A stretch of DNA of 25,313 nt, from positions 1 to 25,313 of the IMG/VR virus record IMGVR_UViG_3300047444_000889. One strand, given 5' to 3'. Numbering within the stretch: position 1 is the stretch's first letter; the number at the start of each line of letters is the position of its first letter. Below the pieces are notes generated by a model, which worked only from the letters and a program-made list of their open reading frames with translations, was not told where the DNA came from and made no database searches. This DNA is from a virus. Positions 2,966 to 25,313 of the stretch are shown here, in pieces. Position numbers and translations under genes: made by a program.

Positions 2966-3112
2966 ATGATCTGCGAAATCTGTGCTAAAGAAGCTCGCCA
3001 CTTTAGAGCGAAGCTCGTGAGACTCCCGGACGGACGAATCGTCGTCGCCGGGACTCTCCACTACTGCGATGAGCACGTCCGCGAACATCCGATCGGAAGG
3101 ATCGAGAAGTGA
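2966..3112 (+). CDS. 48-residue Cys/His small protein
   Basis: ATG at 2966, four bases after the tRNA, opens a 48-codon frame ending at TGA 3110-3112. The TGA overlaps the GTG of the methyltransferase gene. The product has CxxC at residues 3 and 6 and CxxH at 34 and 37, a spacing that could hold one zinc ion. It is otherwise basic. Its N-terminus (MICEIC) resembles that of the next protein (MICRVC), so it may share the same kind of zinc ribbon. Function is unknown. Confidence 0.6.
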   Translation: MICEICAKEARHFRAKLVRLPDGRIVVAGTLHYCDEHVREHPIGRIEK

Positions 3113-3777
3113 TCTGCCGGGTCTGTGGAAACTCGACCGAGCGAACGCTCGCCGCCCCGTACCCGCCCAACTGGTACCGGTGTGATCGCTGCGATAGCGA
3201 CTCCCGAGTCGGCGGACCGACGGAGTACTCCAAGCCCTACCTCGATCGATACGAAGCTCACATCAGCTTCGAAAACAACCTCCACAGCCATCGAGCGAAC
3301 CTTCAATGGTTCGATGACCACGCCGGAGGCTGCACCGGTCGATCCTTCCTCGACGTGGGTTGTGCGGACGGAGCCGCGGTCTTCGGTATGCACGAGCGAG
3401 GCTGGCATCCGCATGGGTTCGACATCAATCCCGCAGTCGCCCGGGGACGGTTCCCCATCACTGTAGCCCCCGCGTTCAACGCCTCCTTCGTCCCGCAAGT
3501 CGACGCTTTGCTCTGCCGCGAAGTTATCGAACACGTCGAGAACTGGCCCGAGTTCCTGACCGAGCTCACCCGAGCTGTGAAACCTCACGGGCTCCTGCAA
3601 GTGCAGACGCCGATGCCGAGCGAAATGCACCCGAACATCTACCAAGAAGACCATCTGCAAATCTTCGCTCCCGGCATCCTCGAAGCAGAAATCAGCAAAC
3701 GCGGCTTTCAGATCATCGAATCCCGGCGATGGACGGACGTCCAAGCCGGCCAAGTCCTCATCGCTAGGAAACACTAA
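3109..3777 (+). CDS. SAM-dependent methyltransferase with N-terminal zinc ribbon
   Basis: The 222-residue product starts with a zinc-ribbon-like module (C3, C6, C25, C28). A class I methyltransferase core follows: motif I FLDVGCADG at residues 80-88 binds S-adenosylmethionine, GFDINP is the acidic loop after strand 2, and LLCREVIEHVENWPEF matches the motif IV/post-IV region of Methyltransf_23-type enzymes. The C-terminal HLQIFAP and GFQIIES segments also fit that family. The substrate is not evident. Such enzymes in glycan clusters often methylate sugars, and this phage also encodes glycosyltransferase-like proteins. GTG start overlaps the upstream TGA; the TAA overlaps the next ATG. A shortened paralogue lies at 23397-23888. 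Confidence 0.85.
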   Translation: MICRVCGNSTERTLAAPYPPNWYRCDRCDSDSRVGGPTEYSKPYLDRYEAHISFENNLHSHRANLQWFDDHAGGCTGRSFLDVGCADGAAVFGMHERGWHPHGFDINPAVARGRFPITVAPAFNASFVPQVDALLCREVIEHVENWPEFLTELTRAVKPHGLLQVQTPMPSEMHPNIYQEDHLQIFAPGILEAEISKRGFQIIESRRWTDVQAGQVLIARKH

Positions 3778-6214: not shown

Positions 6215-6766
6215 ATGCCCACTGGGGATAGAGCGGCCGAGCTACGAAAATATCGTCCTGGCGATCGGATCGCCGATTGGACAGTCGTTAAATATCTCCG
6301 AGGCACGAACCTCATCCGAGTTCGGTGCATCTGTGGCACCCTAGCGGAAATCCAACGAGCGAACCTATTCTCCGGGGCCTCTACGAGATGCAGTGCGTGC
6401 TATCACTCCTCTTGCGAGAGAACCCCAGAATCCCGGATGTGGAAACAAATCCTAGGCTCCGCCGCCAAACGAAACCTTTCAGTCCAAGTCACCAAGGAGT
6501 ATGTATTCAAGCTACTAACGGATCAAAATCACCGCTGTGCTCTTAGTGGACTTCCCATCACTATAGCATCCACTTCGGCGGAACACTATCGAAGAGGCAC
6601 TACGGCGTCCTTGGATCGCATTGATTCCTTTAGGGGCTATGAAGATGGGAACCTCCAATGGATTCACAAGGATTTGAATCGAATGAAATCCTCTCACTCA
6701 GACGAGTATTTCATCAAGATGTGCAGACACGTAGCCGAATACCAGAGTCGAACTCATGTCAATTGA
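6215..6766 (+). CDS. HNH-type endonuclease (second, unrelated to the first)
   Basis: The 183-residue protein has an N-terminal zinc-finger-like Cys set (C38, C40, C59, C62). A phage HNH-like catalytic region follows: CALSGLPI at 108-115, ASLDRIDSFRGYEDGN at 131-146, then LQWIHKDLNRMKSS at 147-160. The "SLDRIDs..GY..GN.qWvhk.iN.mK" signature is seen in many free-standing phage nucleases. Its DNA is visibly less GC-biased than the flanking genes, suggesting recent acquisition. It lies immediately before the portal gene, overlapping its start by 11 bases. The first HNH gene lies immediately after terL, so both sit beside essential packaging genes. Confidence 0.85.
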   Translation: MPTGDRAAELRKYRPGDRIADWTVVKYLRGTNLIRVRCICGTLAEIQRANLFSGASTRCSACYHSSCERTPESRMWKQILGSAAKRNLSVQVTKEYVFKLLTDQNHRCALSGLPITIASTSAEHYRRGTTASLDRIDSFRGYEDGNLQWIHKDLNRMKSSHSDEYFIKMCRHVAEYQSRTHVN

Positions 6767-8780: not shown

Positions 8781-9184
8781 GCGTCCAACTCTCTGTAGCA
8801 GTCCGCAATGCCCGACTCGATGCGATTGAAACGCAGATCGGGGTGTCCGCGGTCCTGAAAATCTTCACCGGTTCTCCGCCGGCCAACTGTGCCGCGGCCG
8901 ATAGCGGCACGACCCTAGCGACGCTCTCCCTCCCGTCCGACTGGATGGCGGCGGCGTCGAGCGGCTCGAAGGCCAAGTCCGGCACGTGGCAGGACACCTC
9001 GGCCGATAACACCGGCACCGCCGGATACTGGCGACTATATGCCAGCGACGGCACGACCTGCGGAGCCCAGGGCACGGTCACCGCGACCGGGGGCGGCGGC
9101 GATATGACGGTGGACAATACGTCCTTCGCAGCCGGCCAGTCGTTCACCGTAACCGCCTTCACTCTCACTGACGGTAATGTATAA
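8777..9184 (+). CDS. Beta-rich phage structural protein
   Basis: 135 residues with a pattern I recognise from many tailed-phage genomes: VAVRNARLDAIETQIG, then SPPANCAAADSGTTLATLSLP, SGTWQDTSADNTGTAGYWRLY and a final QSFTVTAFTLTDGN. It is a small beta-sandwich-type protein without known enzymatic residues. Its genes usually stand near head and tail genes, so it is probably a virion component, but its exact function is not known to me. ATGA overlap couples it to the portal gene, and TAATG couples it to the glycine-rich fibre gene downstream. Confidence 0.7.
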   Translation: MSVQLSVAVRNARLDAIETQIGVSAVLKIFTGSPPANCAAADSGTTLATLSLPSDWMAAASSGSKAKSGTWQDTSADNTGTAGYWRLYASDGTTCGAQGTVTATGGGGDMTVDNTSFAAGQSFTVTAFTLTDGNV

Positions 9185-10215
9185 TGTTGCTTTTGACTTC
9201 CACGTCGTCCCTCGTCCGCGTTAATACCGCGTCCTCGGGCGACATCCGGGTCCATGCCTCCTGGCTCGACGTATTGTCCTGGGCCGTCACGCCCGGCAGT
9301 ACCGACACGGCCTCGATCTCCGGCACCGGCAACACTACGGTCGTTGCCTCTCCCGCGAGCTCGACCGCCCGGAACGTCAAGAACTTGACGATCTTCAACG
9401 TCCACGCGACGGTTTCGAACCTCGTCTACGTCGAGCACTATGACGGGACGACTGCCGAGAAGCTGTGGTCTGGCACCCTCCAGCCCGGCGAATCGGTCGT
9501 CATGGATGACAAGGGCGTCTGGACGCCGTACACCGCGAACGGAATCCCGAAGGGGATCGTCAACCCGTCTGGCCTCTTCGTCAAGCGGACGGTCCTGACC
9601 TCGGGAACCTCGTTCACGACCGGCCTGACGACCAACACGATCTTCGTTCGGCTCCTCGGGGCCGGCGGGGCGGGCGGTGGTGCGACGAGCAACGCGGGTA
9701 ATATCTCCTGTGCTGGCGGCGGGGCCTCTGGCGGATACGCCGAGAAGACCTTCGTCGTCACGCCGAACACGGCATACACCTACCAAATCGGTGCGGGCGG
9801 GGCCGGCGGCATCAATGGAGCTAATGCCGGCAACCAAGGAACCAACACTTTCTTCGTGGTCGGTGCAACCAACGTGGTCGCCAACGGCGGACCCGGCGGT
9901 GCGGCGGCTCCCGCGGCCGGTGCCACAACGACCCGGCTTGGCGGAGCTCGGCCTTCGCAGTCTACCAGTGGCGACCTCAATGCGAGCGGCGTGGCCGGCG
10001 ATAACGGCTTCTCGGTCAGCGTCACAATCGGCTGGTCCGGTGCCGGCGGGGCCTCCCTCATGGCGGGCGGTGGACCGAGCAGCAACGCGAACGGCAATGG
10101 TGCGGCTGGTGTGAACTTTGGTAGCGGTGGTGCGGGTGCTGTGACAGTCGGTGCGGCGAACGCGACCGGCGGTGCCGGCGGGCAAGGAGTCATCATTGTC
10201 GATGAGTTCACGTAA
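9184..10215 (+). CDS. Glycine-rich tail fibre/adhesin
   Basis: 343 residues. Residues 1-155 form a beta-rich head (VKNLTIFNVHATVSNLVYVEHYDG, LWSGTLQPGESVVMDDKGVW), like small phage fibre-base domains. From about residue 157 the chain is a glycine-rich domain (LLGAGGAGGGA, CAGGGASGGYAEKTF, YQIGAGGAGGINGANAGNQG, GGAGGQGVIIV). This matches the Gly-rich domain of fibre tips and adhesins in which polyglycine-II-type segments pack as a scaffold for receptor-binding loops. The ending "GGqGvIiVdE" is typical of such domains. It is not collagen: there is no Gly-X-Y periodicity. Its last 14 bases overlap the next gene start at 10202. Confidence 0.75.
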   Translation: MLLLTSTSSLVRVNTASSGDIRVHASWLDVLSWAVTPGSTDTASISGTGNTTVVASPASSTARNVKNLTIFNVHATVSNLVYVEHYDGTTAEKLWSGTLQPGESVVMDDKGVWTPYTANGIPKGIVNPSGLFVKRTVLTSGTSFTTGLTTNTIFVRLLGAGGAGGGATSNAGNISCAGGGASGGYAEKTFVVTPNTAYTYQIGAGGAGGINGANAGNQGTNTFFVVGATNVVANGGPGGAAAPAAGATTTRLGGARPSQSTSGDLNASGVAGDNGFSVSVTIGWSGAGGASLMAGGGPSSNANGNGAAGVNFGSGGAGAVTVGAANATGGAGGQGVIIVDEFT

Positions 10216-10912
10216 AGCCCTCTTCACCCTCAACGTCAACGACTACTCTCCGGAGATCACGGGGCTCACGTTCCCGTACCTCCGGCGGTACGCCGACAAG
10301 ATCGGGGCCGAGTTCATCGTCATCAAGGATCGCAAGTTCCCGGATATGCCGGTGACTTACGAGAAGCTGCAAATTCACGAGCTCGGCAAACCGTTCGAAT
10401 GGTCGATCTACTTCGACGCCGACACGCTCGTTCACCCGGATATGTTCGACCTGACCGAGACCCTCTCGAAGGACACGGTCCTTCATTGGGGTGCGGATAT
10501 GGCGAGCAACCGCTGGACCTACGACAAGTATTTCCGCCGGGACGGCCGGCACATCGGCTCCGGAAACTGGCTCGCCGTCGCAAGCGACTGGTGCCTCGAC
10601 CTCTGGAAGCCGCTGGACGACCTGACCCTCCCCGAGGCCCTGGCGAACATTCATCCCACGGTCCGAGAGACGAACCTCGGCATGAAGGCCGAGCACCTCA
10701 TCGATGACTACGTTCTCAGCCGGAACATCGCCAAGTACGGGCTGAAGTTCACCAGTATGGTGAAGTTGCAAGAGAAGCTCGGTATCCCGAACGATCTGTA
10801 TCTCAAGCACAACTATATGCTCGACGGCCCCGGTAAGATCAACATGATCCGGGAGCATATCGCGGCTTGGGAGCTGACAGGTCCAAATAAACCCGGCGTC
10901 CTGACGATCTAA
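10202..10912 (+). CDS. Glycosyltransferase-like protein (GT-A fold)
   Basis: 236 residues. Features of GT8/GT-A enzymes are visible: an N-terminal strand and Tyr-rich helix (FTLNVNDYSPEI, FPYLRRYADKIGAEFIVI), then the metal-binding D-x-D motif YFDADTLVHPD (D72, D74), and downstream SGNWLAVASDW, plausibly the acceptor-site region. GT-A enzymes move a sugar from a nucleotide-sugar donor using Mn2+. The acceptor cannot be read from sequence. ATG 10202 was chosen; an earlier in-frame start (10151) lies within the Gly-rich gene. Its position directly after a fibre gene hints at fibre or host-glycan modification, which is inference. TAATG coupling to 10912. Confidence 0.72.
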   Translation: MSSRKALFTLNVNDYSPEITGLTFPYLRRYADKIGAEFIVIKDRKFPDMPVTYEKLQIHELGKPFEWSIYFDADTLVHPDMFDLTETLSKDTVLHWGADMASNRWTYDKYFRRDGRHIGSGNWLAVASDWCLDLWKPLDDLTLPEALANIHPTVRETNLGMKAEHLIDDYVLSRNIAKYGLKFTSMVKLQEKLGIPNDLYLKHNYMLDGPGKINMIREHIAAWELTGPNKPGVLTI

Positions 10913-11487
10913 TGGCAGTCACGATCTATCTCATGCCGCTAACCGGAGCCGGAACGATCGACGATCCGGCCCGTGCTGCGTATTGGGATGCCGCCTCGCC
11001 CTCGAAGCGGGTAGTCATGCGAGTGGGGCGAGAACCCTTCTGCATCATGGCAGTTGAGGATATAGCCCCGGCCGTGGACTCGACAATCGTGGCTGACTCC
11101 ACTTGCACGAAGATACCGGCGCTCACGAACACGGTCAGGGCTGGGGCATTGGCGACGGTGCAATCCAAGATTGAAGGCATCGGCATTCCGGCGGGCTGGG
11201 TCACGGCTGGGATGACCTATCAAACCGTCCTCCAAACCGTGCTGCGAATCACGCAACTCTATCAGCGACTCATGGGACTTGGTGCCGCACGATTGCTCGG
11301 AAGTGGCGTGACTCTGGATACAACATTCAACGCCTTGCCGAGTGAGGTACGGTCAAAACTATTGGCGATGGCTCAGTCATTCAACTTCGACACCAGCAGT
11401 CTAAGCGGCGCTTCGACTATCCGACAGATTCTCAAGGCACTCGCGGACCAGTGGACGACGCCCGTTAATCTTCTAGGGGCGTTCTAA
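10912..11487 (+). CDS. Unknown virion-associated protein
   Basis: 191 residues. The N-terminal half is beta-rich and contains Asp/Pro turns (IYLMPLTGAGTIDDPARAAYW). The C-terminal half is helical (TVLQTVLRITQLYQRLMGLG, PSEVRSKLLAMAQSF). The opening "iYlmPl.GaGt.ddPaRa.yw" resembles the start of several phage structural proteins of unknown function. No catalytic motif is visible. TAATG coupling on both sides places it in the fibre operon (8777-12694), so a role in fibre or baseplate assembly is possible. From here to about 12092 the codon use is a little less G/C-biased than in the capsid genes. Confidence 0.5.
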   Translation: MAVTIYLMPLTGAGTIDDPARAAYWDAASPSKRVVMRVGREPFCIMAVEDIAPAVDSTIVADSTCTKIPALTNTVRAGALATVQSKIEGIGIPAGWVTAGMTYQTVLQTVLRITQLYQRLMGLGAARLLGSGVTLDTTFNALPSEVRSKLLAMAQSFNFDTSSLSGASTIRQILKALADQWTTPVNLLGAF

Positions 11488-12092
11488 TGAGTCGCTTCGA
11501 CAATTTTAACCGTGCGGACAGCAATACGAGCATCAACTCGCCGAGCGACGGTGGCAGCGATTGGGTGGTTATTTCTGGAACTTGGGGCATTAGCAGCAAT
11601 CAGGGGTACGACGTAACTCAATCATTTCAGGAGTTTGTTGCTCTCGATGCAGGCTCACCGAACGCGACCGTTATCGACACCATCACAGCCACGACTGCAA
11701 CTAACTTCGGACTCATTGGGCGAGTTACAGGCGGCTCGAATTTCTATTGGTCACGAGTGCGTCCCAATGTTCCCGAACTCATCGTCTACAGCGTCGTGGC
11801 TGGCGTAGCAACCGCAATCTACGACAACGCGGATGCGTGGTCCGATGGGACGATGACATTCGATCTACAGGGCACGGCCATCAAAGTCTATTTCGGGGCA
11901 TCACTAAAGGCCAACTTGACAGATTCATCGCTTGTCACGGGTGATTCGCACGGACTCTATGGACGGTACGACCCGTCGGCTTTGCATAACGATTTCACGA
12001 TTACCACGGCAAGTGCCGCAATCGTCGGCACCCTCGGACTCTGGGACCCGGACCTAGATAACAAATCCTGGTTTGATGTGACCTTCGGATGA
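11487..12092 (+). CDS. Lectin-like (concanavalin A-type) domain protein
   Basis: 201 residues. It opens with DNFNRADSNTSINSPSDGG and then WVVISGTWGISSNQGY, followed by beta strands containing NFGLIGRVTGGSNFYWSRV, then MTFDLQGTAIKVYFGAS and the end-strand DFTITT. The order "d.FnraDs......GG..W....GtWgi..nqgy....... v...g....y" is typical of concanavalin A-like (LamG/carbohydrate-binding) sandwiches used by phages and secreted enzymes. It probably binds a glycan or acts as a fibre domain. No hydrolase residues are seen. ATGA-type overlap with the next gene (12089). Confidence 0.65.
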   Translation: MSRFDNFNRADSNTSINSPSDGGSDWVVISGTWGISSNQGYDVTQSFQEFVALDAGSPNATVIDTITATTATNFGLIGRVTGGSNFYWSRVRPNVPELIVYSVVAGVATAIYDNADAWSDGTMTFDLQGTAIKVYFGASLKANLTDSSLVTGDSHGLYGRYDPSALHNDFTITTASAAIVGTLGLWDPDLDNKSWFDVTFG

Positions 12093-12694
12093 ACATCAAA
12101 GGCTGGTTCGACGGAGACCTCATCGACGCAGTATCCCGTGAAGGGGTACTGTCCTCGACACTCGGCAGCCTGACCTCGGCGGCAACCGGGACTCTCGCCA
12201 TTGCGGGCACCGCGACCCCGACTCTCGGGGCGTTGACTTCCGCGGCGACCGGGCAACTCGCCATCGCCGGCACGGCCTCCGACACACTCGGATCGCTTAC
12301 CTCCACGGCGACCGGAACCCTCGCTCTATCCGGCACCCTCGGTGCAACCCTCGCGGCCCTCTCGTCCACGGCGACCGGGCAACTCGCCCTCCAAGCGGCC
12401 CTCGCCAAGACCCTCGATGCCGCGACCCTCGCGGGCACCGGGGCTCTCAGCCTCCAAGCCGTCGTCGCCCAGACCCTCGCCTCGCTCGGCATCACGGCGA
12501 CCGGCATCGGGCAAATCTCGACCTCGGGCTCACTCGACGTGACCCTCGGGGGCCTTACCCTCGCGGCGACCGGCACCATGCCGCAAAGCGGGCACCCGGG
12601 TTCCGACGAGTGGCCGAGCGTCTTTGTCCAGCCGGGATACGTCGAGGACGAGGACGAACTGGCCCTTTTAATGGCCCAATTCCTTCTCCAGTAA
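12089..12694 (+). CDS. 21-residue tandem repeat protein (fibre-type)
   Basis: 201 residues. Residues 19-167 consist of seven repeats of about 21 residues with the consensus G-T-L-x-x-T-L-G-x-L-T-S-x-A-T-G-x-L-A-I-x. The first three are nearly identical and the later ones drift. Alternating small and aliphatic residues predict stacked beta strands, giving a fibrous or solenoid rod. Similar "L.aTLgalTLsaTGt" repeats occur in phage and bacterial surface proteins. The C-terminus (WPSVFVQPGYVEDEDELALLMAQFLLQ, split acidic and hydrophobic) may be an assembly or capping helix. It is the last gene before a 69-base gap, so this transcription unit may end here. Confidence 0.7.
   Translation: MNIKGWFDGDLIDAVSREGVLSSTLGSLTSAATGTLAIAGTATPTLGALTSAATGQLAIAGTASDTLGSLTSTATGTLALSGTLGATLAALSSTATGQLALQAALAKTLDAATLAGTGALSLQAVVAQTLASLGITATGIGQISTSGSLDVTLGGLTLAATGTMPQSGHPGSDEWPSVFVQPGYVEDEDELALLMAQFLLQ
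12143..12589 (+). repeat. Seven tandem ~63-bp in-frame repeats
   Basis: The repeats encode the 21-residue units described in the protein at 12089. A common DNA core is seen, such as GCGACCGG followed by a CTCGCC-type segment, about every 63 bases. Unit 6 is two codons longer. The units are in phase, so copy number could change without breaking the frame. Confidence 0.75.
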
Positions 12695-16032: not shown

Positions 16033-16481
16033 TGAGCGTCTACCGTGACATTCTCGCCGCAGTCCAAAATGGCGTCGATGGGCTCGCCCTCGATGGGTTC
16101 TCCAAAACCGCGATTCGCAAGCGGCCTCACATCGTACGAACCGACTTTGACGACGGCTCGGGCATCGTCATTATCTCGCCGTCCGCCGAAATCGTCGCGG
16201 AAGAGTACACGGAAAACACGGAAAACATCGACTACCCAGTCCATGTGACCTTCGCCCAGGCCGGCGATGGCGTGGTCGACGTATCCGCAACAAATAGCCT
16301 GCTCGATGCCCGCGAAGCTGTCCGCCTCAAGTTTCACAAAACCACGCTGACCGGCGTCTCGTCTGTGATCGATGTTCGGGTCTTCCTCTCTCGCCTCTTC
16401 GATCCATTCATGTTCGGAACGAACATCGACGCCTCCCAGCTAACTCTGATCTTTAAGTCCACGGAGCCTCGCTCACAATGA
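16032..16481 (+). CDS. Putative tail terminator/neck protein
   Basis: 149 residues, starting MSVYRDILAAVQNGVDGLALDGFSKTAIRKRP. It continues with IVIISPSAEIVAEE, YPVHVTFAQAGDG, a helix LLDAREAVRLKFHKT and the strands VIDVRVFLSRLFDP and ASQLTLIFKSTEP. The alternation of an alpha-helix at the start, beta hairpins and another helix is the layout of tail terminator (gpU/gp17-like) proteins that stop tail growth and join the head. The location directly before the tail tube genes supports it. No single motif is diagnostic. ATGA overlap with the first tube-like gene. Confidence 0.55.
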   Translation: MSVYRDILAAVQNGVDGLALDGFSKTAIRKRPHIVRTDFDDGSGIVIISPSAEIVAEEYTENTENIDYPVHVTFAQAGDGVVDVSATNSLLDAREAVRLKFHKTTLTGVSSVIDVRVFLSRLFDPFMFGTNIDASQLTLIFKSTEPRSQ

Positions 16482-16876
16482 GTTTCAAATCCGGTAAGAA
16501 TGGGCGACTCTCCCTCGGTGGGACGACCTTCAAGGTCAAGCGGTGGAGCGTCGAGCCGAAGAATCAAATCCAAGACGTGACGAACGGGAACTCGAACGGA
16601 TTCGGCGAGTACATCGCTGGCGTGTCCGACCTCGACTTCTCGGCTGAACTCGACTACGACGTCGGCACCAATCCCTTCGGAACCAAGTTCGTCCAGGGAC
16701 TCCTCCTCCAAGCAATCTTCTACGTCGATGGCGTTGGGGCTCCGAATTGGACCGTCAACGGCATCGTCGAATCTGTGACGAACTCCCTGGACGTCCGCGG
16801 CCTCGTGAGCATCACGCTCCACGGACGAGCGAGTGTTGACTCCGGCGGAACCGCCTGGACTGCCCCGAGCACCTAA
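16478..16876 (+). CDS. Tail tube-like protein, copy 1
   Basis: 132 residues, beta-rich, with the segments SGKNGRLSLGGTTFKVKRWSVE, EYIAGVSDLDFSAELDYDVGTNPFG, and SLDVRGLVSITLHGRAS. Tail tube subunits are small beta-barrel proteins with a similar "G..g.v.ig...y.v..ws.....d..d....g......g..d...." make-up, forming the tube through which DNA passes. Its location between connector genes and tape measure fits. The next gene encodes a clear paralogue, so one could be the main tube and the other a minor tube, cap or spike-type subunit. ATGA coupling upstream and TAATG downstream. Confidence 0.68.
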   Translation: MSFKSGKNGRLSLGGTTFKVKRWSVEPKNQIQDVTNGNSNGFGEYIAGVSDLDFSAELDYDVGTNPFGTKFVQGLLLQAIFYVDGVGAPNWTVNGIVESVTNSLDVRGLVSITLHGRASVDSGGTAWTAPST

Positions 16877-17325
16877 TGTCACTCGGTTTCCAATCCGGCA
16901 AGTTGGGCAAGCTGGTGATCGGCTCCGACACCTACAAGATCAAGCACTGGTCGCTTGACTTGCCCTCCGCTATCCTCGACGTCACCAACGGCGGAGGGGG
17001 TGGCATCGATGACCCGTCGGTTCCGGTCGGCGGGTACGGTCAGTACATTGCCGGCGTCGCCGATATGGACTTCACCGTCGAGCTAGACCACGACGTAGGC
17101 TCCTCGCCCTTCGCAACCGACTTCGTCGTCGGTACGATCCTCGCCTCAGTCTTCCTGTACGTGGACCCGGTCTCCGCCCACTTCTGGAGAATCTGCGGAG
17201 CGATCGTGCAAGATGCCGGCGAATCGCTAGACGTTCGCGGCCTCGCCTCGATCCGGATGACTGCGAAGGCAACTGGCGGCAATTACGCTTTCCACGAAAA
17301 CGATGACCCCACGTTGTGCCCATGA
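16876..17325 (+). CDS. Tail tube-like protein, copy 2
   Basis: 149 residues, clearly paralogous to the preceding protein. Both begin MS..SGK.GkL.ig..tyK.K.WS, share DVTNG, YIAGV.D.DF..ELD.DVG..PF.T.FV and end with SLDVRGL.SI. The second copy has an extra Gly-rich and Pro-containing loop (GGGGGIDDPSVPVGGYG) of about 13 residues around position 38-54. Tandem tube genes are known where one is decorated or carries an added domain, but the loop here is short. Coding DNA overlaps the next gene by ATGA. Confidence 0.68.
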   Translation: MSLGFQSGKLGKLVIGSDTYKIKHWSLDLPSAILDVTNGGGGGIDDPSVPVGGYGQYIAGVADMDFTVELDHDVGSSPFATDFVVGTILASVFLYVDPVSAHFWRICGAIVQDAGESLDVRGLASIRMTAKATGGNYAFHENDDPTLCP

Positions 17326-17983: not shown

Positions 17984-19275
17984 GTGACGGTGCAGACGAA
18001 CTACTGAAGCTCCTTAGCGACATGATCGCCAGTCGCCAGATGGCGACGAACGTCGGCCTCGGGGACGTCGCGAGCAAAGGCCCGAACGCGAACCCGTCGG
18101 ATATCGTCAAGGGGTATCGCGAGGTCACCAACGAACTCAAGCAGCTGCTCGCGTTAGAGAAGGACCTTTCGAAAGAGCGGCGTGAGGGAGCAAAGAAGGC
18201 CGCGGCTGAGGAACGCCGAGCTGCCGCGGAAAAGAAGTCCGCCCATCGAGCGTATCAAGCCGCGTTGAAGAACAGCGGCATGGCGACTCCCCGCGATGTG
18301 GAGATCGCCCGTCGTCGGTCGGTCGCGATCATGGAACGCCGAGCGGCATCAGCCGCAGCGGTGAAGGCGAAAGCCCTCGACGCCTGGGAACAGCTCGCGT
18401 ACGGCGGCACCGGCTCGGACGGTATGCCTCGATCCGGTGGTGGAGTTGGTGGAGGGCGAGCGGGGGGTTCACGTGCGAAGGGCCTTGGCCGACTCCCGCT
18501 CGCCTCGGTGCCGGCGGCGTTGATGGGTAATCGATCCGCCGGAGCCCGTGTCGGCTACGCCCTCGGCAGCATGACTGGCCTCGGTATGGCCGCAGGGCTT
18601 CCGGGACTAGCGATCGGTGCTGGAGCCGCCGCCGCAATCGGTGCTGGAGGAGCCGCATCCCCCACGGGTATGAGCGTCGTCACAAAGCCGCTTGAAATCC
18701 TCGCCGGAACAATCGGCGGAATGGTTCTTCCGTCCCTCGTTCGCTTCGGTGGGGCTCTTCTAGATATGGCCGATTGGGTAGAGGGCAAGATGGGAGGGAA
18801 GGAGGCCACGCCCGGCAGCTATAGTAATCGAGCGAATCAAGTGGCAGGGGCCTATGGCGGAGCCGGCGTCCTGGCTGGAGCTACGATCGGCTCTATCGCC
18901 GGACCGCCGGGGATGGTTATCGGTGCTCTAACTATGGGTATTGCCGGACTCGTAGCTGGGAAAAAGATTGGGGACATGGAGGCGGACGCCCGCCTAAAGA
19001 TTGATCCATCCCCTGAAGCGGCTGCTGAACGACAAGAGCGATTTGGCGGAAAGCTACAATCCCTCAGCAACCAGAAGATGATCCTACAGGACATGATCCA
19101 GGGACTTGGGGCGAAGCCGAAAATGGGTTCGAATATCCTCGACATCGCGAAGGAAACCCAGATGGCAGTCTTCGAGAGCCCGATGGAAGTCCGCCAGCGT
19201 CGCATGTGGATGGAAAATATCGCGATCGTTTCGGCTAAGATCGAAGCCGTCGAGAAAGCAATTAGAGGTGGATAA
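17980..19275 (+). CDS. Tape measure protein (short)
   Basis: 431 residues. It begins with a long charged coiled-coil-like region (about residues 45-140, KEDL/ERREGAKKAAAEERRAAAEKK type). A Gly-rich linker (about 148-168) follows, then a long hydrophobic, Gly/Ala-rich stretch (about 175-335) with several membrane-like helices, and a charged helical end. This layout and the position after the chaperones are typical of tape measure proteins that set tail length and insert into the host membrane. At the rule of thumb of about 1.5 angstrom per residue, 431 residues would give a tail near 65 nm. That is an estimate, not measured. TAATG overlap with the next gene. Confidence 0.78.
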   Translation: MSDGADELLKLLSDMIASRQMATNVGLGDVASKGPNANPSDIVKGYREVTNELKQLLALEKDLSKERREGAKKAAAEERRAAAEKKSAHRAYQAALKNSGMATPRDVEIARRRSVAIMERRAASAAAVKAKALDAWEQLAYGGTGSDGMPRSGGGVGGGRAGGSRAKGLGRLPLASVPAALMGNRSAGARVGYALGSMTGLGMAAGLPGLAIGAGAAAAIGAGGAASPTGMSVVTKPLEILAGTIGGMVLPSLVRFGGALLDMADWVEGKMGGKEATPGSYSNRANQVAGAYGGAGVLAGATIGSIAGPPGMVIGALTMGIAGLVAGKKIGDMEADARLKIDPSPEAAAERQERFGGKLQSLSNQKMILQDMIQGLGAKPKMGSNILDIAKETQMAVFESPMEVRQRRMWMENIAIVSAKIEAVEKAIRGG

Positions 19276-20315
19276 TGGCCCGCGGCCTTGATGGAATGGA
19301 CTTTCGAGAGCAAGACGAACACCAGGGGGTTTCTCCCACCTTCGGTGGTGATCGGTTCATGCAGAAGAGCTCTCGCATCTTCTGGTTGAAGACGTGGAGC
19401 GACATCAAGCAAGCGATCCCGAACGCCCTGGGCTATCCGACCCGCACGGCTCCGGGTGTTCTGTCCCGGTACCTCCCGCACCAGGACCCAGTCTTTCCGT
19501 TCCTCGTCGCCACGAGTTACGGGTCCACAAAGAACAAGGGTATCTCCCTCGACACCCCGGACAGTGATTCCGGACTCCGCGGCAACGAGTACGATGGCGG
19601 AATCGTCCTTCCGCTGGAATTCGAGAAGCCGCTATATCATATCCTCGAAGACGGTGAACTGGCCCCCGAAGACACGGCGAACTATAACGGTCTCGGTCCT
19701 CGATGGGCGACGGAGATAGATCGATACGTCGAGTACGAAGAGACCCCTGAGTCTTCGTACGTCACCCCGCCGTCAGTCACGGGTATGATGGCGTGGTCAA
19801 AAGGACAGACTGGTCTCGGCGGGGAAGACAATCAGTCCTTCCCGCAAAACTATTCGACCATCCTCGGAGAGGCATCGATCCGCCTCCGCTGGCACCAGAT
19901 TCCGGACGACGCCCTGCCGCTGGACGCGATCTACGCCTGCCTGGGCAAAGTGAACCAGACGAACTTCGGCTCGAAGGAAGATGTCCGCCTTGGCTTTAAC
20001 CCCTGGTCGATGCTATTTCTCGGCGGTTCTTTCACCCGCATCGTTCTCCCGACTGGCGATTTCGGCTGGACCGTCGAGTACCTGTTCAAATTCTCGGGCT
20101 CTCAGAAAGTCTGGAACTACTATTTGAATGCCCGAGCCACGACGCCGGGATTTTACGAAGTCTCGCTCAAGCCGATCACCGGAGCTGGTCCTCCCCCGAC
20201 TCTCGGAGACGCCCCGTTCTTCGTTCCTGGGGCGACGAATTCCGACGATACCCACATCGGGAACAAGATTTCGTACGGCGTGGCAAACCTGAATGACCTC
20301 TTCGTGATCGCATAA
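19275..20315 (+). CDS. Tail protein, distal (unknown family)
   Basis: 346 residues, beta-rich with many aromatic residues and Pro/Gly turns, directly after the tape measure gene, where distal tail proteins are placed. Visible segments include FGGDRFMQKSSRIFWLKTWSD, YEETPESSYVTPPSVTGMMAW, IRLRWHQIPDDALPLDAIYACLGKVNQTNF and FGWTVEYLFKFSGSQKVWNYY. No catalytic or membrane motif is seen. The closing region looks like a barrel-type assembly domain. I do not recognise the family, so "distal tail" is by place only. Confidence 0.55.
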   Translation: MARGLDGMDFREQDEHQGVSPTFGGDRFMQKSSRIFWLKTWSDIKQAIPNALGYPTRTAPGVLSRYLPHQDPVFPFLVATSYGSTKNKGISLDTPDSDSGLRGNEYDGGIVLPLEFEKPLYHILEDGELAPEDTANYNGLGPRWATEIDRYVEYEETPESSYVTPPSVTGMMAWSKGQTGLGGEDNQSFPQNYSTILGEASIRLRWHQIPDDALPLDAIYACLGKVNQTNFGSKEDVRLGFNPWSMLFLGGSFTRIVLPTGDFGWTVEYLFKFSGSQKVWNYYLNARATTPGFYEVSLKPITGAGPPPTLGDAPFFVPGATNSDDTHIGNKISYGVANLNDLFVIA

Positions 20316-20316
20316 G

Positions 20317-20922
20317 ATGCCCTCGATCCCCATCGGTAGCACTGGTCATGGATTGATGCGTCGGGACGACCCGACGATTCAGGAGATCATCCGCCAGCTC
20401 CAGCAGGTGGCGACGCTCTCGACGGAGTATCCGCTGGATATCGTGAAGAATGGAGACGTATACCATCTCCGCTACGTGGCTCGCCGCCCCGCCTGGGTTC
20501 GAATCACCGGTCACGCGAGCACGTCATACTCCTCGGGATACGAACCGCTCAACCACTACGCGGGGATCGAGCAGGTCTCGCGAATCGGGATGTCGGCGTC
20601 TGAGGACCTGAACTCTGGGCTCCGCTTCGATGAACACTTTCCGCTCTTCGCGATGGACGGCAACACCGCGGTTCCCGAGAACGCTCTCGTGTATGCGACG
20701 CCAGCCCTCGGCGGCACGCACTACGAGTTCGTGTGGGCGACCGGACAAATGGCTCTAACTTGCCCGAGCGGAGGGTCCGGTTCAGGTCAGTGCGATTCGG
20801 TATGCGGGTTGCCGATCGATAACCTCTTCCAGTGCGTGGACGGCTTCACGGAACCGACCGAAGGGTGCCTTGTGGTTGTGAATGCGAACGGCGATCCGAT
20901 CGGACGGGTGGAAATCCGATGA
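20317..20922 (+). CDS. Tail-tip region protein, unknown family
   Basis: 201 residues. The N-terminal half reads as an extended beta region (TIQEIIRQLQQVATLSTEY, NGDVYHLRYVARRPAWVRITGHAS, EPLNHYAGIEQV). The C-terminal part has a Ser/Gly linker and five Cys within 40 residues (CPSGGSGSGQCDSVCGLP, QCVDGFTEPTEGC), followed by VVVNANGDPIGRVEIR. It could use disulfides or zinc for a compact tip domain. Function unknown. It lies one base after the previous stop and overlaps the next gene by ATGA. Confidence 0.52.
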   Translation: MPSIPIGSTGHGLMRRDDPTIQEIIRQLQQVATLSTEYPLDIVKNGDVYHLRYVARRPAWVRITGHASTSYSSGYEPLNHYAGIEQVSRIGMSASEDLNSGLRFDEHFPLFAMDGNTAVPENALVYATPALGGTHYEFVWATGQMALTCPSGGSGSGQCDSVCGLPIDNLFQCVDGFTEPTEGCLVVVNANGDPIGRVEIR

Positions 20923-21548
20923 TTATCGTCCCGCCTCCGAACTACATCTACGACACGAGCGGAGGCTCCGGGTATGGCGGGTGCCAGTGTCGCTGCGTGC
21001 CGCCGGACCCCATTGACTGCGGCAACGGGTGTCCGCCGCTCGATATGTCGCGGTACCACGTTCGACTCAACCGAATCCGAGCGACCGACAATCCGGACTG
21101 CCTCATCGACTTCGACACGTCCGCAATCCCGGAGTTCAAACTCGATGGCGAAAGCGGGAACACTGTAGGAGTGATCCCACCAGCGATTGCGAGCTTCCCT
21201 TCGAAAATCCCTGGCGGAGCCCTCGCTAATTATCAGTTCTTCAACGCTTGTGGTGTATTGAATATCTCAACATGGTTCGCCTACATCTATTGTACGTGTA
21301 GCGATCCCATCGATGGGTTACGATACACCCTACAGTTTCGGTTCGGAACGTCCCCCGCCGGCTTTACTCCTAACTTCGCTTGCCCTTTGTGTCCCGCCGG
21401 CATTATCAGTCGGGCATTTATCATCTTCAGCGTACCCTGTTCCGATGAATGCGATTTCGATACGATCCTTGGGGACTATGAAGTGAATCTCGTGGACGGT
21501 ACTTTCGGGTCACACTACACTCTCGACTTCACGGTCTATAAGACATGA
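20919..21548 (+). CDS. Cysteine-rich tail-tip region protein, unknown family
   Basis: 209 residues from ATG 20919, which overlaps the previous stop; an upstream in-frame start (20832) would lie in the preceding gene. The N-terminus has a glycine/tyrosine-rich lead and a dense Cys cluster (residues 22, 24, 26, 34, 38: CQCRC and CGNGCPP). More Cys occur later in the chain (YCTCSDP, CPLCPAG and CSDEC). The rest is beta-rich (FVPSKIPGG-like turns and a strand-like end, LDFTVYK). With the Cys-rich end of the preceding protein, this gives two adjacent Cys-rich tail genes. Possibly disulfide- or metal-stabilised tip components, which is inference. Confidence 0.55.
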   Translation: MIIVPPPNYIYDTSGGSGYGGCQCRCVPPDPIDCGNGCPPLDMSRYHVRLNRIRATDNPDCLIDFDTSAIPEFKLDGESGNTVGVIPPAIASFPSKIPGGALANYQFFNACGVLNISTWFAYIYCTCSDPIDGLRYTLQFRFGTSPAGFTPNFACPLCPAGIISRAFIIFSVPCSDECDFDTILGDYEVNLVDGTFGSHYTLDFTVYKT

Positions 21549-22585
21549 TCGAGTCGATGAAGTTCACGCCTAACCGGCAACCAATGCGGAAAGGCATCCG
21601 CCTTCCGCTGCGGCATGACGAGTGCGTGCATCTCGGGCTCAAGAAGTCGCATGTGGATGTGAATGGGAACGCGGTGAACTGCCGGGGCAAGCATCTCTTC
21701 GCCTGCGACCTGCACGGAGAGTGCCGGATCAACGACCCGCGGGCGGCTCACAACTGCCAGACCTGCGGCGATTATTCGGTCGATCTCCCCGATGACCCGG
21801 CGTACCGCCCCGGACTCCGACACATCCTCTACCACGTCTATCCGATGCGGGGAACCGGGACGTGGCAGCGGAACATCGACCAGCTCGTACCGCGACTCCC
21901 GCTCTTCAGCGGCAAAAGAATCTGTGCGATCGCGGTAGACAACAAGACTGATGACGCCGACGCGGTCAAGCAACACCTCGGCGACTCGTTCGAGTATCTC
22001 CTCTTCCCGAACGACCCCTTCAAGAGGGAGGTCATCTCCTGGGTTCCCCTCTGGGAGCGGGTGATCGAGGAGCCCGGCGTCACGTTCTATGCCCACGCGA
22101 AGGGGGTCCGGCACCCGACGAATCCGGGCGTTTCTGTCCATTTCTGGACGGAAATGATGTACGAAACCCTCCTGGATTATTGGCCGACCGTAGAACACTC
22201 ACTACGCTCTCATCCTTTGACGGGTACCTTTAAGAAGGTGGGCCGGTGGTTTGCCCGCTGCCCGTCCCGTTGGCACTACTCCGGCTCATTCTTCTGGGCT
22301 CGGAACGACAAGCTCCGTGAGAAGCCGTGGCGGAATCCCCCGCAAGAATGGTGGGGAACCGAAGCTGCTCCTGGCACGTGGTTTCCGCAAGAGCGTGCCG
22401 GCGTCATCTTCCACGAAAATCCGAAGCTCAACATCTACAACCCGCAATACTGCCAAGGCGTCCTGAAGGAGCTGCGTAAGTGGAGATTGGATCATTCACC
22501 GAGCCCTTCAATCACTGGTACCTCTGGGACGCGCTCGACATCGGCCTCGTGCGGGACGCCGTCGCAAGCGTCCCCGGCGTGTTGA
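21545..22585 (+). CDS. Glycosyltransferase-like protein with N-terminal Cys/His module
   Basis: 346 residues. The N-terminal ~75 residues hold a Cys/His set (C27, H29, C46, C54, H57, C60, C71, C74). The rest resembles glycan-processing transferases: HILYHVYPMRGTGTWQRNIDQLVPRL, then AIAVDNKTDD, FYAHAKGVRHPTNPG, YETLLDYW and WHYSGSFFWARND. Reading of "H.KGv" and "ysGsfFwar" as sugar-transferase features is by pattern and not a proven family. The last ~35 residues are Ser/Thr/Pro low complexity and lie out of frame over the start of the next gene, with a 106-base overlap. They may be read-through after a lost stop. Confidence 0.6.
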   Translation: MIESMKFTPNRQPMRKGIRLPLRHDECVHLGLKKSHVDVNGNAVNCRGKHLFACDLHGECRINDPRAAHNCQTCGDYSVDLPDDPAYRPGLRHILYHVYPMRGTGTWQRNIDQLVPRLPLFSGKRICAIAVDNKTDDADAVKQHLGDSFEYLLFPNDPFKREVISWVPLWERVIEEPGVTFYAHAKGVRHPTNPGVSVHFWTEMMYETLLDYWPTVEHSLRSHPLTGTFKKVGRWFARCPSRWHYSGSFFWARNDKLREKPWRNPPQEWWGTEAAPGTWFPQERAGVIFHENPKLNIYNPQYCQGVLKELRKWRLDHSPSPSITGTSGTRSTSASCGTPSQASPAC

Positions 22586-23097
22586 GCCCGACCTGGATTC
22601 GGTACGAGAACGATTCCGAGCTCCACAAGTGGACGATGGAAGCCGGTCTCCCGGACCCGTGGAACAAACTCCTTGACGCTCTTGCTGCGTTGCCTGTTGA
22701 CGAGATCACTGGAATTCCTGGTCTTCGGTGCGATCTTGCCCGTCGCGGTGCTGGTTGCCACGTTATGTTCCCTGGTGGTGTCCTCGCTCCTCACCTCGAT
22801 TATGCAATCCATCCATCCGGCCTAGAGCGTCGAGCGAACCTGATCCTGTTCCTCCAAGACGGCAATCCCTCAGATGGCGGCACCCTTGACCTCTGCGACC
22901 CGTTCGGTAAGCCGCTCAAGAGCTTCGCAGGCAAAGAGAACACCGCAGTCATCTTCGAATGCTCCGACCTCTCTTATCACGGAGTCTCCCGATTAACGAA
23001 AACCGCCGCATCCCGAGTGACAGCCGCCTCATACTATCTGGCGAGCCCGAGGACCGGGGCAGTTCGCCGGAGGGCGACCTTCTTACCAACTCGGTAA
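22480..23097 (+). CDS. 2-oxoglutarate/Fe(II)-dependent oxygenase
   Basis: 205 residues from GTG 22480. The double-stranded beta-helix signature is visible: the iron ligands H105 and D107 in LAPHLDYAIHP, the distal H167 in LSYHGVSRL, and R179 in KTAASRVTAASYYLA, placed to bind 2-oxoglutarate. Between them run LILFLQDGNPSDGGTLDL and NTAVIFECS, as in prolyl hydroxylase-type (2OG-FeII_Oxy) enzymes. They hydroxylate protein side chains, nucleobases or small molecules using O2. The target is unknown. No ATG exists before the "HxD" motif that would spare conserved sequence, so the GTG start is accepted although it overlaps the glycosyltransferase-like gene by 106 bases. Confidence 0.82.
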   Translation: MEIGSFTEPFNHWYLWDALDIGLVRDAVASVPGVLSPTWIRYENDSELHKWTMEAGLPDPWNKLLDALAALPVDEITGIPGLRCDLARRGAGCHVMFPGGVLAPHLDYAIHPSGLERRANLILFLQDGNPSDGGTLDLCDPFGKPLKSFAGKENTAVIFECSDLSYHGVSRLTKTAASRVTAASYYLASPRTGAVRRRATFLPTR

Positions 23098-23204
23098 TCC
23101 GCGAGCTCATCAATCTGTGGGGCGAAGTCTTCATCCGCATCGACAACGACACCATCGAGATCATCAACCCTGCACAGGTGAAACTTGAGCGAGTGGTCAA
23201 GTAA
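22959..23204 (+). CDS. Small unknown protein (start uncertain)
   Basis: 81 residues if ATG 22959 is used, in which case the first 139 bases overlap the oxygenase gene in another frame. The N-terminal part is Arg/Ser/Pro-rich, as expected of an overlapping frame. The C-terminal ~37 residues (SVIRELINLWGEVFIRIDN, IEIINPAQVKLERVV) look like a real short domain and continue beyond the oxygenase stop. No ATG, GTG or TTG with a clear ribosome site lies between, so the true start is uncertain; a start on a rarer codon is possible. Function unknown. It overlaps the next gene by 20 bases. Confidence 0.4.
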   Translation: MLRPLLSRSLPINENRRIPSDSRLILSGEPEDRGSSPEGDLLTNSVIRELINLWGEVFIRIDNDTIEIINPAQVKLERVVK

Positions 23205-23400
23205 ACTGCCAACCGTTCCTGGTTTCTACTTCGTGTGCTTCCTCGCGGGGCCGACGGTTTCGTACTCCGCGGTTGAGGTGGTCGAGGGATCGATCGGCGG
23301 GCCGTTATGGGCTCTCTTCCCTGGGACCGATAACGACGTGTGCTTGGATTCCCCGTTCGGCTCTTGGATCGGCCCTCTCGAAATCCCTCCGTTCAAATGA
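23185..23400 (+). CDS. Small unknown protein with GxY/GPLE pattern
   Basis: 71 residues from TTG 23185, with AGGTG (23176-23180) four bases upstream as a ribosome site. The sequence runs KLPTVPGFYFVCFLAGPTVSYS, VVEG, WALFPGTDNDVCLDS and WIGPLEIPP. "pGfYfV....gp....veVve......l...Gtd...........GPle.P" is a pattern of small phage proteins of unknown function that read "GWYWV...vvEV....GPi..P". It overlaps the stop of the preceding frame and the ATG of the next gene (ATGA). Confidence 0.52.
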   Translation: MSEWSSKLPTVPGFYFVCFLAGPTVSYSAVEVVEGSIGGPLWALFPGTDNDVCLDSPFGSWIGPLEIPPFK

Positions 23401-23888
23401 TCTACTGCCGTAACTGTGCGAACAAGACCGCGGAACGGATGCTGGGTGAGTCATACGCCCGCTGCCTGTACTGCGGATCGGACACGAATCTGATCGTCCC
23501 GGTCGTCGCCCCGGTGAAGTGGGAATCCCCCTTCGAGAAAAAGACAGACTACGTCGATGCTTGGGTCGGCTGGGGGGCGTTGGGGTACCTCGCGAGGAAC
23601 CTCGGCCGGCAGCACGAGACGGTTATCGCTGGCGGGATGCTGGAGCAGACCCCCGGCTGGAAACAACTCCTGGTCGAGCTTACGAAGTCAGTGGTGAAGA
23701 ACGGTTGGCTGCACTTAGAGACAGCCCGCCCGACCGTGGGGCCCCAGACTCACCTCGCCCAGGTCATCTCTCCCCTCGCATTGCAGAACGAATTCCGCAA
23801 CCTCGGTCTCTCGATTATCAACTGGTCCTTCACCGAGGACCGTCAAGCCTATTGGCTACAAAAGATGGATGAAGTGTTCACCGTATGA
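23397..23888 (+). CDS. Degenerate methyltransferase paralogue with zinc ribbon
   Basis: 163 residues from ATG 23397; an upstream in-frame start (23340) would lie in the preceding gene. N-terminus: zinc-ribbon Cys pairs (CRNC and CLYC), equivalent to those of the methyltransferase at 3109. C-terminus: ETVIAGGMLEQTPGWKQLLVELTKSVVKNGWLHLETARP aligns with the other protein's DALLCREVIEHVENWPEFLTELTRAVKPHGLLQVQTPMP. LAQVISPLALQNEFRNLGLSII aligns with LQIFAPGILEAEISKRGFQII. The segment with the SAM-binding motif (VGCADG) is missing, and the protein is about 60 residues shorter. It is therefore likely catalytically inactive, or it works as a partner of the intact enzyme. Confidence 0.62.
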   Translation: MIYCRNCANKTAERMLGESYARCLYCGSDTNLIVPVVAPVKWESPFEKKTDYVDAWVGWGALGYLARNLGRQHETVIAGGMLEQTPGWKQLLVELTKSVVKNGWLHLETARPTVGPQTHLAQVISPLALQNEFRNLGLSIINWSFTEDRQAYWLQKMDEVFTV

Positions 23889-24640
23889 AATGCCACGACG
23901 ACTACAACTGCCCGACCGAGCCGCATCACCCGATGTACATCGAGGGCGTGACGATCTGCGACGGGTACGCTGACTTCCTCCGCGTGACGATGCCCTACAT
24001 GTTGTCGGTCGTTGACCGGCTCATCGTAGGCACCTCGCCCCAGGACGAAGAGACGCGAGACCTCTGCCGCCAGCACCACGTTCAGTGTATCCTCTCGACC
24101 GAGCACCGGCGGAGGGGATTCAACAAGGGCCGGCTCATCGAACGGTGCCTCCAACACACCTCAGCCAACGGCTGGCGGCTCCATGTCGATTCGGACATCG
24201 TCCTTCCGCACCGGATGCGGCACTACCTAGTGTCCGCGGACCTGGACCCACAGGGCATCTACGGCGTGGACCGAGTGATGATTCACTCGCGAGCTCAATG
24301 GGAACGGTTCAAAGCATCCGATTACCTCCAACATCACCACCACTCGGTTGACCTGCCTCGCGGGTACTCAGTCGGCGGTCGCTGGGCAGCCCATCAATCC
24401 GGGTACGTACCAATCGGATTCTTCCAGCTCTGGAACTCCGCAGCGGACGAATGGCGGGGTTCCCGCATCCGCCGGTATCCCGAGTCGCACGGCAATGCCT
24501 GCCGCACGGATGTGCAATTCGGCCTCCAGTGGGATCGCCGGGATCGGCATCTGCTTCCCGAGATCGCGGTCGTGCACTTGGAGTCTGAAGCCGCGGGACT
24601 CGGAGTCAACTGGAATGGTCGCAAAACAAAACGCTTTTAA
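23885..24640 (+). CDS. Glycosyltransferase, GT-A fold
   Basis: 251 residues. The order of features fits GT2/GT-A enzymes: EGVTICDGYADFLRVTMPYML with the nucleotide-sugar binding first half, SVVDRLIVGTSPQDEETRDLCRQHHVQCILSTEH, FNKGRLIERCLQH, then the metal-binding motif RLHVDSDIVLPHR (D102, S103, D104). The C-terminal half includes SGYVPIGFFQLWNS and ends near IAVVHLESEA. "lvvgTs..DeeT.ela..." is the usual opening of such enzymes. Acceptor not evident. ATGA overlap links it to the methyltransferase paralogue. This is the third glycosyltransferase-like gene of the window. Confidence 0.78.
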   Translation: MKCHDDYNCPTEPHHPMYIEGVTICDGYADFLRVTMPYMLSVVDRLIVGTSPQDEETRDLCRQHHVQCILSTEHRRRGFNKGRLIERCLQHTSANGWRLHVDSDIVLPHRMRHYLVSADLDPQGIYGVDRVMIHSRAQWERFKASDYLQHHHHSVDLPRGYSVGGRWAAHQSGYVPIGFFQLWNSAADEWRGSRIRRYPESHGNACRTDVQFGLQWDRRDRHLLPEIAVVHLESEAAGLGVNWNGRKTKRF

Positions 24641-24658: not shown

Positions 24659-25313
24659 GTGAAGAAACTGTTTCTGCTTCTGGTCCTCGGGTTCGGCCTA
24701 GCCGTGCCCTCCGCGGAGGGTCAATTTCGACTTCCGCGTCCTTTGGCCCCTGTTCGACCGACACCCAGTTCGACGCCGCTCGATACTGAGATGGACTTCC
24801 TCGGCGGACCCGAGCACGACGGGCGGCACATCCGAGTCGATCTCCCCATGTCCGAGCACCTTCGCAACAAGGCCGGCACCGATCACAGCGGCCTGTGCGT
24901 CTTCGCCTCCCTCGACATGGACGCCCGATACCAAAACATCAAACCCCTGATCGGCATCCTCGACTATATGACGCAGTACCCAGGCGGCGGGTGGCCGAAG
25001 AAGGTGGACGCCGCGATCGCGGTCAAGGCGAACGGAATCCGCTACCAGCAATCGACGACCGCCGACGAGAAGCTCTTCGCCATGTTCCTGAAGACCGGCC
25101 GGCCGGTCTGCATGACGTACGGGTACTCGCCTCGATACAAGGATCGGAAGAATCCCTCAGGGCGAATCGATCACATGGTCCTCTGCGTCCACCTCGACGA
25201 GAAGTGGGGCGTAATCCTGGACAACAACTTCCCTGGCGATTACGAGTGGTGCTCCCGGCAAGAACTGTTCCGCCGCTGGGAACTTGGCGACCTTGGCGGT
25301 TGGCTAATTGGAC
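24659..25313 (+). CDS. Secreted cysteine-peptidase-like protein (3' end cut by window)
   Basis: GTG 24659 opens a frame that stays open to the window edge (218 codons seen). Residues 1-21 form a signal peptide (MKKLFLLLVLGFGLAVPSAEG), followed by a Pro-rich stretch (about 24-42). The mature part has features of papain/C39-like peptidases: GLCVFASLDMDARYQN (candidate nucleophile C80), then IDHMVLCVHLDEKWGVILDNNFP (candidate H172 and N189/N190), with spacing typical of the Cys-His-Asn order. It might cleave protein or peptidoglycan cross-links outside the cytoplasm, for lysis or infection. This is by motif pattern; the catalytic set is not proven. It could instead be an inactive homologue. Confidence 0.65.
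   Translation, partial: MKKLFLLLVLGFGLAVPSAEGQFRLPRPLAPVRPTPSSTPLDTEMDFLGGPEHDGRHIRVDLPMSEHLRNKAGTDHSGLCVFASLDMDARYQNIKPLIGILDYMTQYPGGGWPKKVDAAIAVKANGIRYQQSTTADEKLFAMFLKTGRPVCMTYGYSPRYKDRKNPSGRIDHMVLCVHLDEKWGVILDNNFPGDYEWCSRQELFRRWELGDLGGWLIG

Follow-up and report, generated by a model that had tools for sequence, protein, structure and literature searches.

The stretch of viral DNA analysed here (the window, 25,313 nucleotides, IMG/VR record IMGVR_UViG_3300047444_000889) carries four co-directional genes 3' of its tail genes, GT1, OXY, MT2 and GT2, and this raises the question of what an oxygenase, two glycosyltransferase-like proteins and a methyltransferase-like protein modify in that place. 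The window sequence and its list of open reading frames (ORFs) agree with a sequence-only reading as to the positions of the four genes, and the features that bear on the question are the following.

20922..21548, plus strand: Cys-rich last gene of the tail region, a possible substrate (from sequence)
21545..22585, plus strand: GT1, probable GT-A glycosyltransferase with a Cys-rich N-terminal extension (viral profile family, Foldseek)
22480..23097, plus strand: OXY, 2OG/Fe(II) oxygenase with a prolyl-hydroxylase-like profile (PF13640, invariant catalytic residues)
23185..23400, plus strand: small ORF of 71 aa between OXY and MT2 (ORF list, sequence)
23397..23888, plus strand: MT2, degenerate methyltransferase paralogue lacking SAM motif I (similarity to 3109-3777)
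23885..24640, plus strand: GT2, GT-A-like glycosyltransferase with a DSD motif at 24188-24196 (sub-threshold PF13704)
3109..3777, plus strand: MT1, intact class I methyltransferase, paralogue of MT2 and possible partner (PF13489, 1e-13)
10202..10912, plus strand: GT3, GT-A-like glycosyltransferase with a DAD motif, possible partner

The cassette does lie right behind the tail genes, as had been claimed. Tail proteins are encoded at 19275-21548, the first codon of GT1 overlaps the stop codon with which this tail region ends, and ATGA start/stop overlaps of this kind occur at three junctions (20922-21548/GT1, ORF 23185/MT2 and MT2/GT2). Furthermore, the GT1 frame extends 106 bases into OXY, whereby the last ~34 GT1 codons overlap OXY out of frame, and the OXY start at 22480 is itself well supported, because an in-frame TAA and GAAGGAG are found directly 5' of its GTG. 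The 71-codon ORF, the stop of which overlaps the MT2 start, was absent from the earlier reading, and a search for its relatives found none; the gene at 20922-21548 likewise has no family match. GC3 of the cassette (0.67-0.78) is the same as that of the remaining window. The portal and head protein of the window have no relative among 50,697 phage records, and scans of viral contigs with single proteins (OXY, GT1, GT2, head protein) returned zero matches or one chance match; locus L002 was rejected as a chance match, being a short SRVTAASYY stretch within an unrelated 1491-aa protein.

OXY matches PF13640 with an E-value of 3e-12 (47.7 bits, cutoff 27), and the HxD...H...R set attributed to it is indeed intact: H105 (22792-22794) and D107 (22798-22800) of the HxD at 22792-22800, the distal H167 (22978-22980) and R179 (23014-23016) are all present and invariant across 42 diverse relatives. 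Among solved proteins, the best matches of the family profile are protein prolyl hydroxylases (OGFOD1 at 1e-16, P4H at 1e-5, Tpa1 at 0.02), which suggests kinship with this type, a result coloured by the bias of solved PF13640 structures toward it. OGFOD1 and Tpa1, the closest solved proteins, share the HxD...H...R set and are established as acting on a ribosomal protein. The window OXY has diverged strongly, and the oxygenase tree leaves it unplaced.

GT1 by itself has no Pfam or NCBIfam match, but an iterated profile groups it with other viral proteins sharing the motifs H-x-K-G and HYxGxFxW, a family also represented in Synechococcus phage S-SRM01. Its AlphaFold model has an alternating beta/alpha core of low confidence (mean pLDDT 48.9), for which almost every top PDB match in Foldseek is a GT-A glycosyltransferase, although no E-value is under 0.001, and a classic conserved DxD was not identified; GT1 is a probable member of this class. 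GT2 reaches an E-value of 0.0013 with PF13704 (19.6 bits, under the gathering cutoff of 27.5), its DSD occupying residues 102-104, and a plasmid search with it gave no match. MT2 has no family match and its structure model is uninformative, but it is paralogous to MT1 (BLASTP 4e-7, phmmer 1e-8) and has kept the Cys motif at its N-terminus as well as the C-terminal half. It was rightly called degenerate, since the LDVGCADG region (SAM motif I), and with it the SAM-binding half, is missing from the alignment to MT1, and judging from this alignment the usual motif is not available to MT2 for SAM binding. GT3 is 35% identical to L003:5640-6308, and both AG-345-E08 and L213 have a GT3 relative close to GT1-OXY; a link of GT3 to glycine-rich virion proteins (3/43 vs 1/294 genes, at a threshold picked afterwards) is only suggestive.

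Co-occurrence in relatives had been set beforehand as the test on which the idea of a modification cassette could fail. Relatives of GT1 were the only seed of a scan that yielded 50 non-redundant viral loci; 36 of these lack OXY, and in the 14 that hold both genes OXY is without exception on the same strand and at most two genes from GT1, where 5.2 loci would be expected at random (permutation p 5e-5). The pair is adjacent in phages whose virion genes are unrelated, and in a T4-like phage (L188) these functions are even fused, as a single 1020-aa protein consists of MT, GT1, GT2 and DUF6445, the last being a second 2OG-like domain. The gene order of that locus is collagen-like fibre, OXY, a further PF13640 protein, the MT-GT1-GT2-DUF6445 protein, a GT2-MT protein, neck, terminase and sheath, and the order fibre, OXY, GT/MT, neck recurs in L006, L032, L042, L048, L079 and L219. 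Recurrent linkage and fusion in other phages, together with the order oxygenase-GT-MT-GT in Streptomyces phage Zuko, thus bear out the idea of a cassette.

These T4-like aquatic phages (L188, L048, L006, L032, L042, L219) belong to a lineage unrelated to that of the window, but like the window they combine OXY with GT1, GT2-type and MT domains, and they do so in one operon with virion genes. They differ from it in their DUF6445, extra 2OG enzymes, collagen-like fibres and fused domains. Classic collagen hydroxylation, a candidate raised by the collagen genes adjoining OXY, is unsupported, since the collagen tracts of the relatives are proline-poor and near lysine-free (in nine loci the Y position is mostly Gln, with Pro at 0-9% and Lys at about 0); the window itself holds no collagen repeat.

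Since like sets recur in unrelated phages, mostly by tail-fibre genes, the cassette probably decorates the phage's own virion proteins. It would then be a module that is produced along with the late tail operon and decorates proteins after translation. OXY would hydroxylate a side chain, most probably in a tail protein or another protein of the virion; GT1 and GT2, perhaps aided by GT3, would attach sugars to that residue or to one beside it and lengthen the glycan; and a methyltransferase component would cap the sugar or modify it in some other way. This component would be MT1 together with the pseudo-enzyme MT2, or else MT2 acting alone as a binding partner. We infer the catalytic steps, their order, the target and the methyltransferase role, and give a late-expressed hydroxylation-glycosylation module acting on a tail or virion protein about an even chance. 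Virion decoration had been proposed from the sequence, and the proposal is strengthened by the overlap with the tail gene, the prolyl-hydroxylase-like profile and the fibre-to-neck placement in T4-like phages, but weakened by cellular relatives in surface-polysaccharide-type loci and by a similar set in Streptomyces phage Zuko that lies away from virion genes. The divergence of OXY, the missing SAM motif of MT2 and the 36 GT1 loci devoid of OXY likewise weigh against it.

The alternative that survives best, which we nonetheless consider rather doubtful, is that the enzymes build or alter an O-antigen, capsule or other surface glycan of the host and so block superinfection, with OXY hydroxylating a sugar or a lipid-linked part. 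It retains some plausibility because cellular OXY relatives occur in capsule/O-antigen-type loci, where the neighbours of the bacterial ones are genes for GT families, Wzy_C ligase, sulfotransferases, capsule and the synthesis of polysaccharides. Furthermore, marine phage loci with OXY contain epimerases and nucleotidyltransferases, some phage loci contain nucleotide-sugar synthesis genes, and host-surface modification is the published reading of similar phage GT clusters (PMC7029224). The window cassette is however coupled to a tail gene and holds no nucleotide-sugar gene, the T4-like module sits inside a virion operon, and the OXY profile resembles protein hydroxylases.

That the genes are accidental neighbours, i.e. 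unrelated accessory genes sharing no pathway that have collected behind the tail genes in a hypervariable region, is improbable. Such phage regions are indeed hypervariable (PMC7029224), no relatives of MT2 and GT2 were traced, and most GT1 loci lack OXY, but this explanation is in poor agreement with the constant proximity of OXY to GT1, with the adjacency of the pair in phages with unrelated virion genes and with the fusion of MT, GT1, GT2 and DUF6445, and the cassette is not a chance cluster.

Although bases that are first hydroxylated and then glycosylated are known from hypermodified phage DNA, a base hydroxylated by OXY and then glycosylated by the GTs is very improbable here and the DNA option once left open finds no support, as Pfam scans at E up to 1 match OXY to PF13640/PF13661 only, with no TET/JBP-type or other DNA-hydroxylase family, and the GTs to no T4 DNA-glucosyltransferase family, the solved OXY relatives are protein hydroxylases and the cassette adjoins tail genes; other DNA-modification genes may exist, since the fragment is without the replication half.

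Among known systems, gp109-gp106 of Zuko (and KimJongPhill) resemble the window in having a member of the OXY family (32% identity), after which come a GT, an MT and a second GT. The Zuko GTs and MT are however not orthologous to those of the window, and the set, annotated without a proposed role, is found in the right arm, surrounded by tRNAs and small genes, whereas the window cassette adjoins tail genes. A precedent for virion decoration comes from mycobacteriophages, in which tandem GTs and an O-methyltransferase reportedly modify proteins of the capsid and the tail tube (Freeman et al. 2023, cited in PMC11600133 and PMC13313380). As far as the citing papers describe it, this system shares with the window GTs accompanied by a methyltransferase and virion proteins as the expected target; these descriptions mention no 2OG oxygenase, the methyltransferase within the window cassette is degenerate, and the likeness is one of description. 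A chlorovirus, which in contrast to the window phage has a eukaryotic host, encodes a prolyl-4-hydroxylase and itself carries out the glycosylation of its capsid protein, in the cytoplasm (PMC7019647). Its P4H and glycosylation are however not known to be coupled, because hydroxyproline was sought in the virions and not found (PMC7019647), an observation that also speaks against virion decoration by the window cassette.

Aquatic-phage 2OG oxygenases are common, and the published explanation is that they adjust the 2-oxoglutarate and nitrogen metabolism of the host (PMC9602691); phage GTs have been explained as modifiers of DNA or O-antigen (PMC7029224). The conserved linkage of GT1 and OXY, like the fusion of MT, GT1, GT2 and DUF6445, points to another role that can be tested, in the maturation of fibre or tail proteins. 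More broadly, and as a tentative possibility, hydroxylation-dependent glycosylation of tail proteins may be the work of a module that moves among unrelated phages, usually by fibre or tail genes. A prolyl-hydroxylase-like enzyme would make the attachment site and GT-A enzymes linked or fused to MT would add a capped glycan, the carriers being T4-like aquatic phages, Streptomyces phages and the window lineage. If this is true, many environmental phages would have hydroxylated glycoproteins as their receptor-binding structures, with a bearing on host recognition and on the structural biology of tails.

The window, a 25.3-kb virus record and apparently a fragment, is laid out as follows:

785, terminase
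6756, portal
14239, head protein
up to 21548, tail-region genes
21545-22585, + strand, GT1, probable glycosyltransferase
22480-23097, + strand, OXY, 2OG/Fe(II) oxygenase
23397-23888, + strand, MT2, shortened methyltransferase paralogue
23885-24640, + strand, GT2, glycosyltransferase-like

The four-gene observation of the sequence-only reading is correct: all four genes of this cassette lie directly behind the tail region, downstream of it and on its strand, and their GC3 is no different from that of the rest of the window. GT1, MT2 and GT2 each start in an ATGA overlap with the stop codon of the preceding gene, which ties GT1 to the last tail gene. Furthermore, the GT1 frame runs 106 bases into OXY, whose own GTG start comes directly after an in-frame stop and is served by a good ribosome-binding site. 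An extra 71-codon ORF is found between OXY and MT2. Elsewhere in the window, two HNH-endonuclease-like genes (2284-2796 and 6215-6766) have a GC3 of 0.52-0.53 against 0.60-0.86 for the rest, as expected of recently arrived genes, a tRNA-Pro (cgg; 2889-2963) lies between the terminase region and the intact methyltransferase gene MT1 (3109-3777), and two adjacent, mutually similar genes (16478-16876 and 16876-17325) possibly encode duplicated tail-tube proteins. The window end cuts a gene (24659-25312) for a secreted protein whose N-terminus resembles a signal peptide and which may carry a papain-like Cys/His/Asn set; no family match for it was found in Pfam or NCBIfam.

OXY is a confident PF13640 member by profile match, and its HxD...H...R set, previously described as intact, is indeed present (H105-x-D107, H167, R179) and invariant across 42 phage and bacterial relatives. 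A profile built from these relatives matched, among PDB sequences, OGFOD1 (1e-16), a putative hydroxylase, P4H, a HIF-type prolyl hydroxylase and Tpa1, matches that would favour a protein substrate, although most solved PF13640 proteins are of that type anyway. PHROG 274, labelled 'DNA endonuclease V', is matched by 2OG oxygenases of the T4-like aquatic phage L048 (3905-4609) and of Streptomyces phage Zuko (gp109), for which the label looks wrong. GT1 has no match in curated families; iterated profiles place it in a viral family with the motifs H-x-K-G, AWR-x-YLEY and HYxGNFWWA, and a low-confidence structure model shows a beta/alpha core that comes closest to GtrB, GpgS, heparosan synthase, B3GalT5 and other GT-A enzymes, with no match reaching E 0.001. 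GT1 is regarded here as a probable glycosyltransferase. MT2 is, as had been proposed, a degenerate methyltransferase paralogue; compared with MT1, its intact counterpart, it is shortened and devoid of SAM motif I. GT2 has a weak PF13704 match spanning its DSD motif. No relatives of MT2 or GT2 were traced in the collections searched. Relatives of GT3, a glycosyltransferase-like gene of the head/tail region (10202-10912), occur in otherwise unrelated viral contigs (L086-L096) with identities of 44-58%, sometimes beside glycine-rich proteins (3/43 adjacent genes vs 1/294 others), and GT3 likewise lies near a glycine-rich gene (9184-10215).

Among 80 proteins encoded within two genes of OXY in 26 non-redundant viral loci retrieved with it, GT2-type glycosyltransferases are commonest (19), with DUF6445 (14), PF13704 (12), sugar epimerases and methyltransferases also prominent. 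In a second scan, seeded with GT1 relatives only to remove the bias of that retrieval, 14 of 50 non-redundant loci also encoded an OXY relative, in every case same-stranded and no more than two genes away, against 5.2 expected under random placement within each locus (permutation p = 5e-5, the test floor), these loci being not fully independent since most are T4-like aquatic phages. The pair is adjacent also in marine virus AG-345-E08 and in the window, whose virion genes found no match in the phage collection. In the T4-like phage L188, a single 1020-residue protein (9371-12430) combines methyltransferase, GT1, GT2/PF13704 and DUF6445 domains. Encoded next to it are OXY, a further PF13640 protein and a GT2-MT protein, and the set is bounded on one side by a collagen-repeat fibre bearing an S74 chaperone domain and on the other by neck, terminase and sheath genes. 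The fact that the kinds of function found side by side in the window form one polypeptide in L188 argues that they belong to one pathway. DUF6445, judged by its invariant HxD...H...R set (L048:7113-7667 and relatives), is probably a second 2OG enzyme family; large GT1-DUF6445 fusions are also found in L187, L194, L198, L200, L216 and L217. The notion of a modification cassette is well supported.

Virion protein is our best guess for the target, since the module lies inside the virion-gene operon of T4-like phages, often directly behind collagen-like fibres, and in the window shares a start/stop overlap with the last tail gene. The textbook collagen reaction does not explain the module: the collagen tracts are G-X-Q repeats in which Pro makes up 0-9% of position Y and Lys about none, and the fibres of L048 and L188 are almost without proline. 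The main rival is host-surface modification: bacterial OXY relatives adjoin capsule, O-antigen ligase, polysaccharide synthesis and sulfotransferase genes, so the family may act on surface glycans too, and the oxygenase tree is undecided between the two targets because the window OXY sits on a very long branch. Comparable aquatic-phage genes have been read as O-antigen modification, DNA protection or tuning of 2-oxoglutarate metabolism (PMC7029224, PMC9602691); DNA modification by the cassette is unlikely.

Mycobacteriophages offer a precedent for virion protein targets, their glycosyltransferase and O-methyltransferase genes modifying capsid and tail-tube components (Freeman et al. 2023, cited by PMC11600133 and PMC13313380). 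Chloroviruses carry a P4H alongside virion glycosylation, but their virions yielded no hydroxyproline (PMC7019647). The oxygenase-GT-MT-GT set of Zuko resembles the cassette, but its GT and MT partners are not orthologous to those of the window. No paper joining phage, collagen-like protein, prolyl hydroxylase and glycosyltransferase was found among open-access full texts, which is weak evidence of novelty. The recurrent hydroxylase-glycosyltransferase-methyltransferase module would be a new variation on a known theme, phage virion glycosylation.
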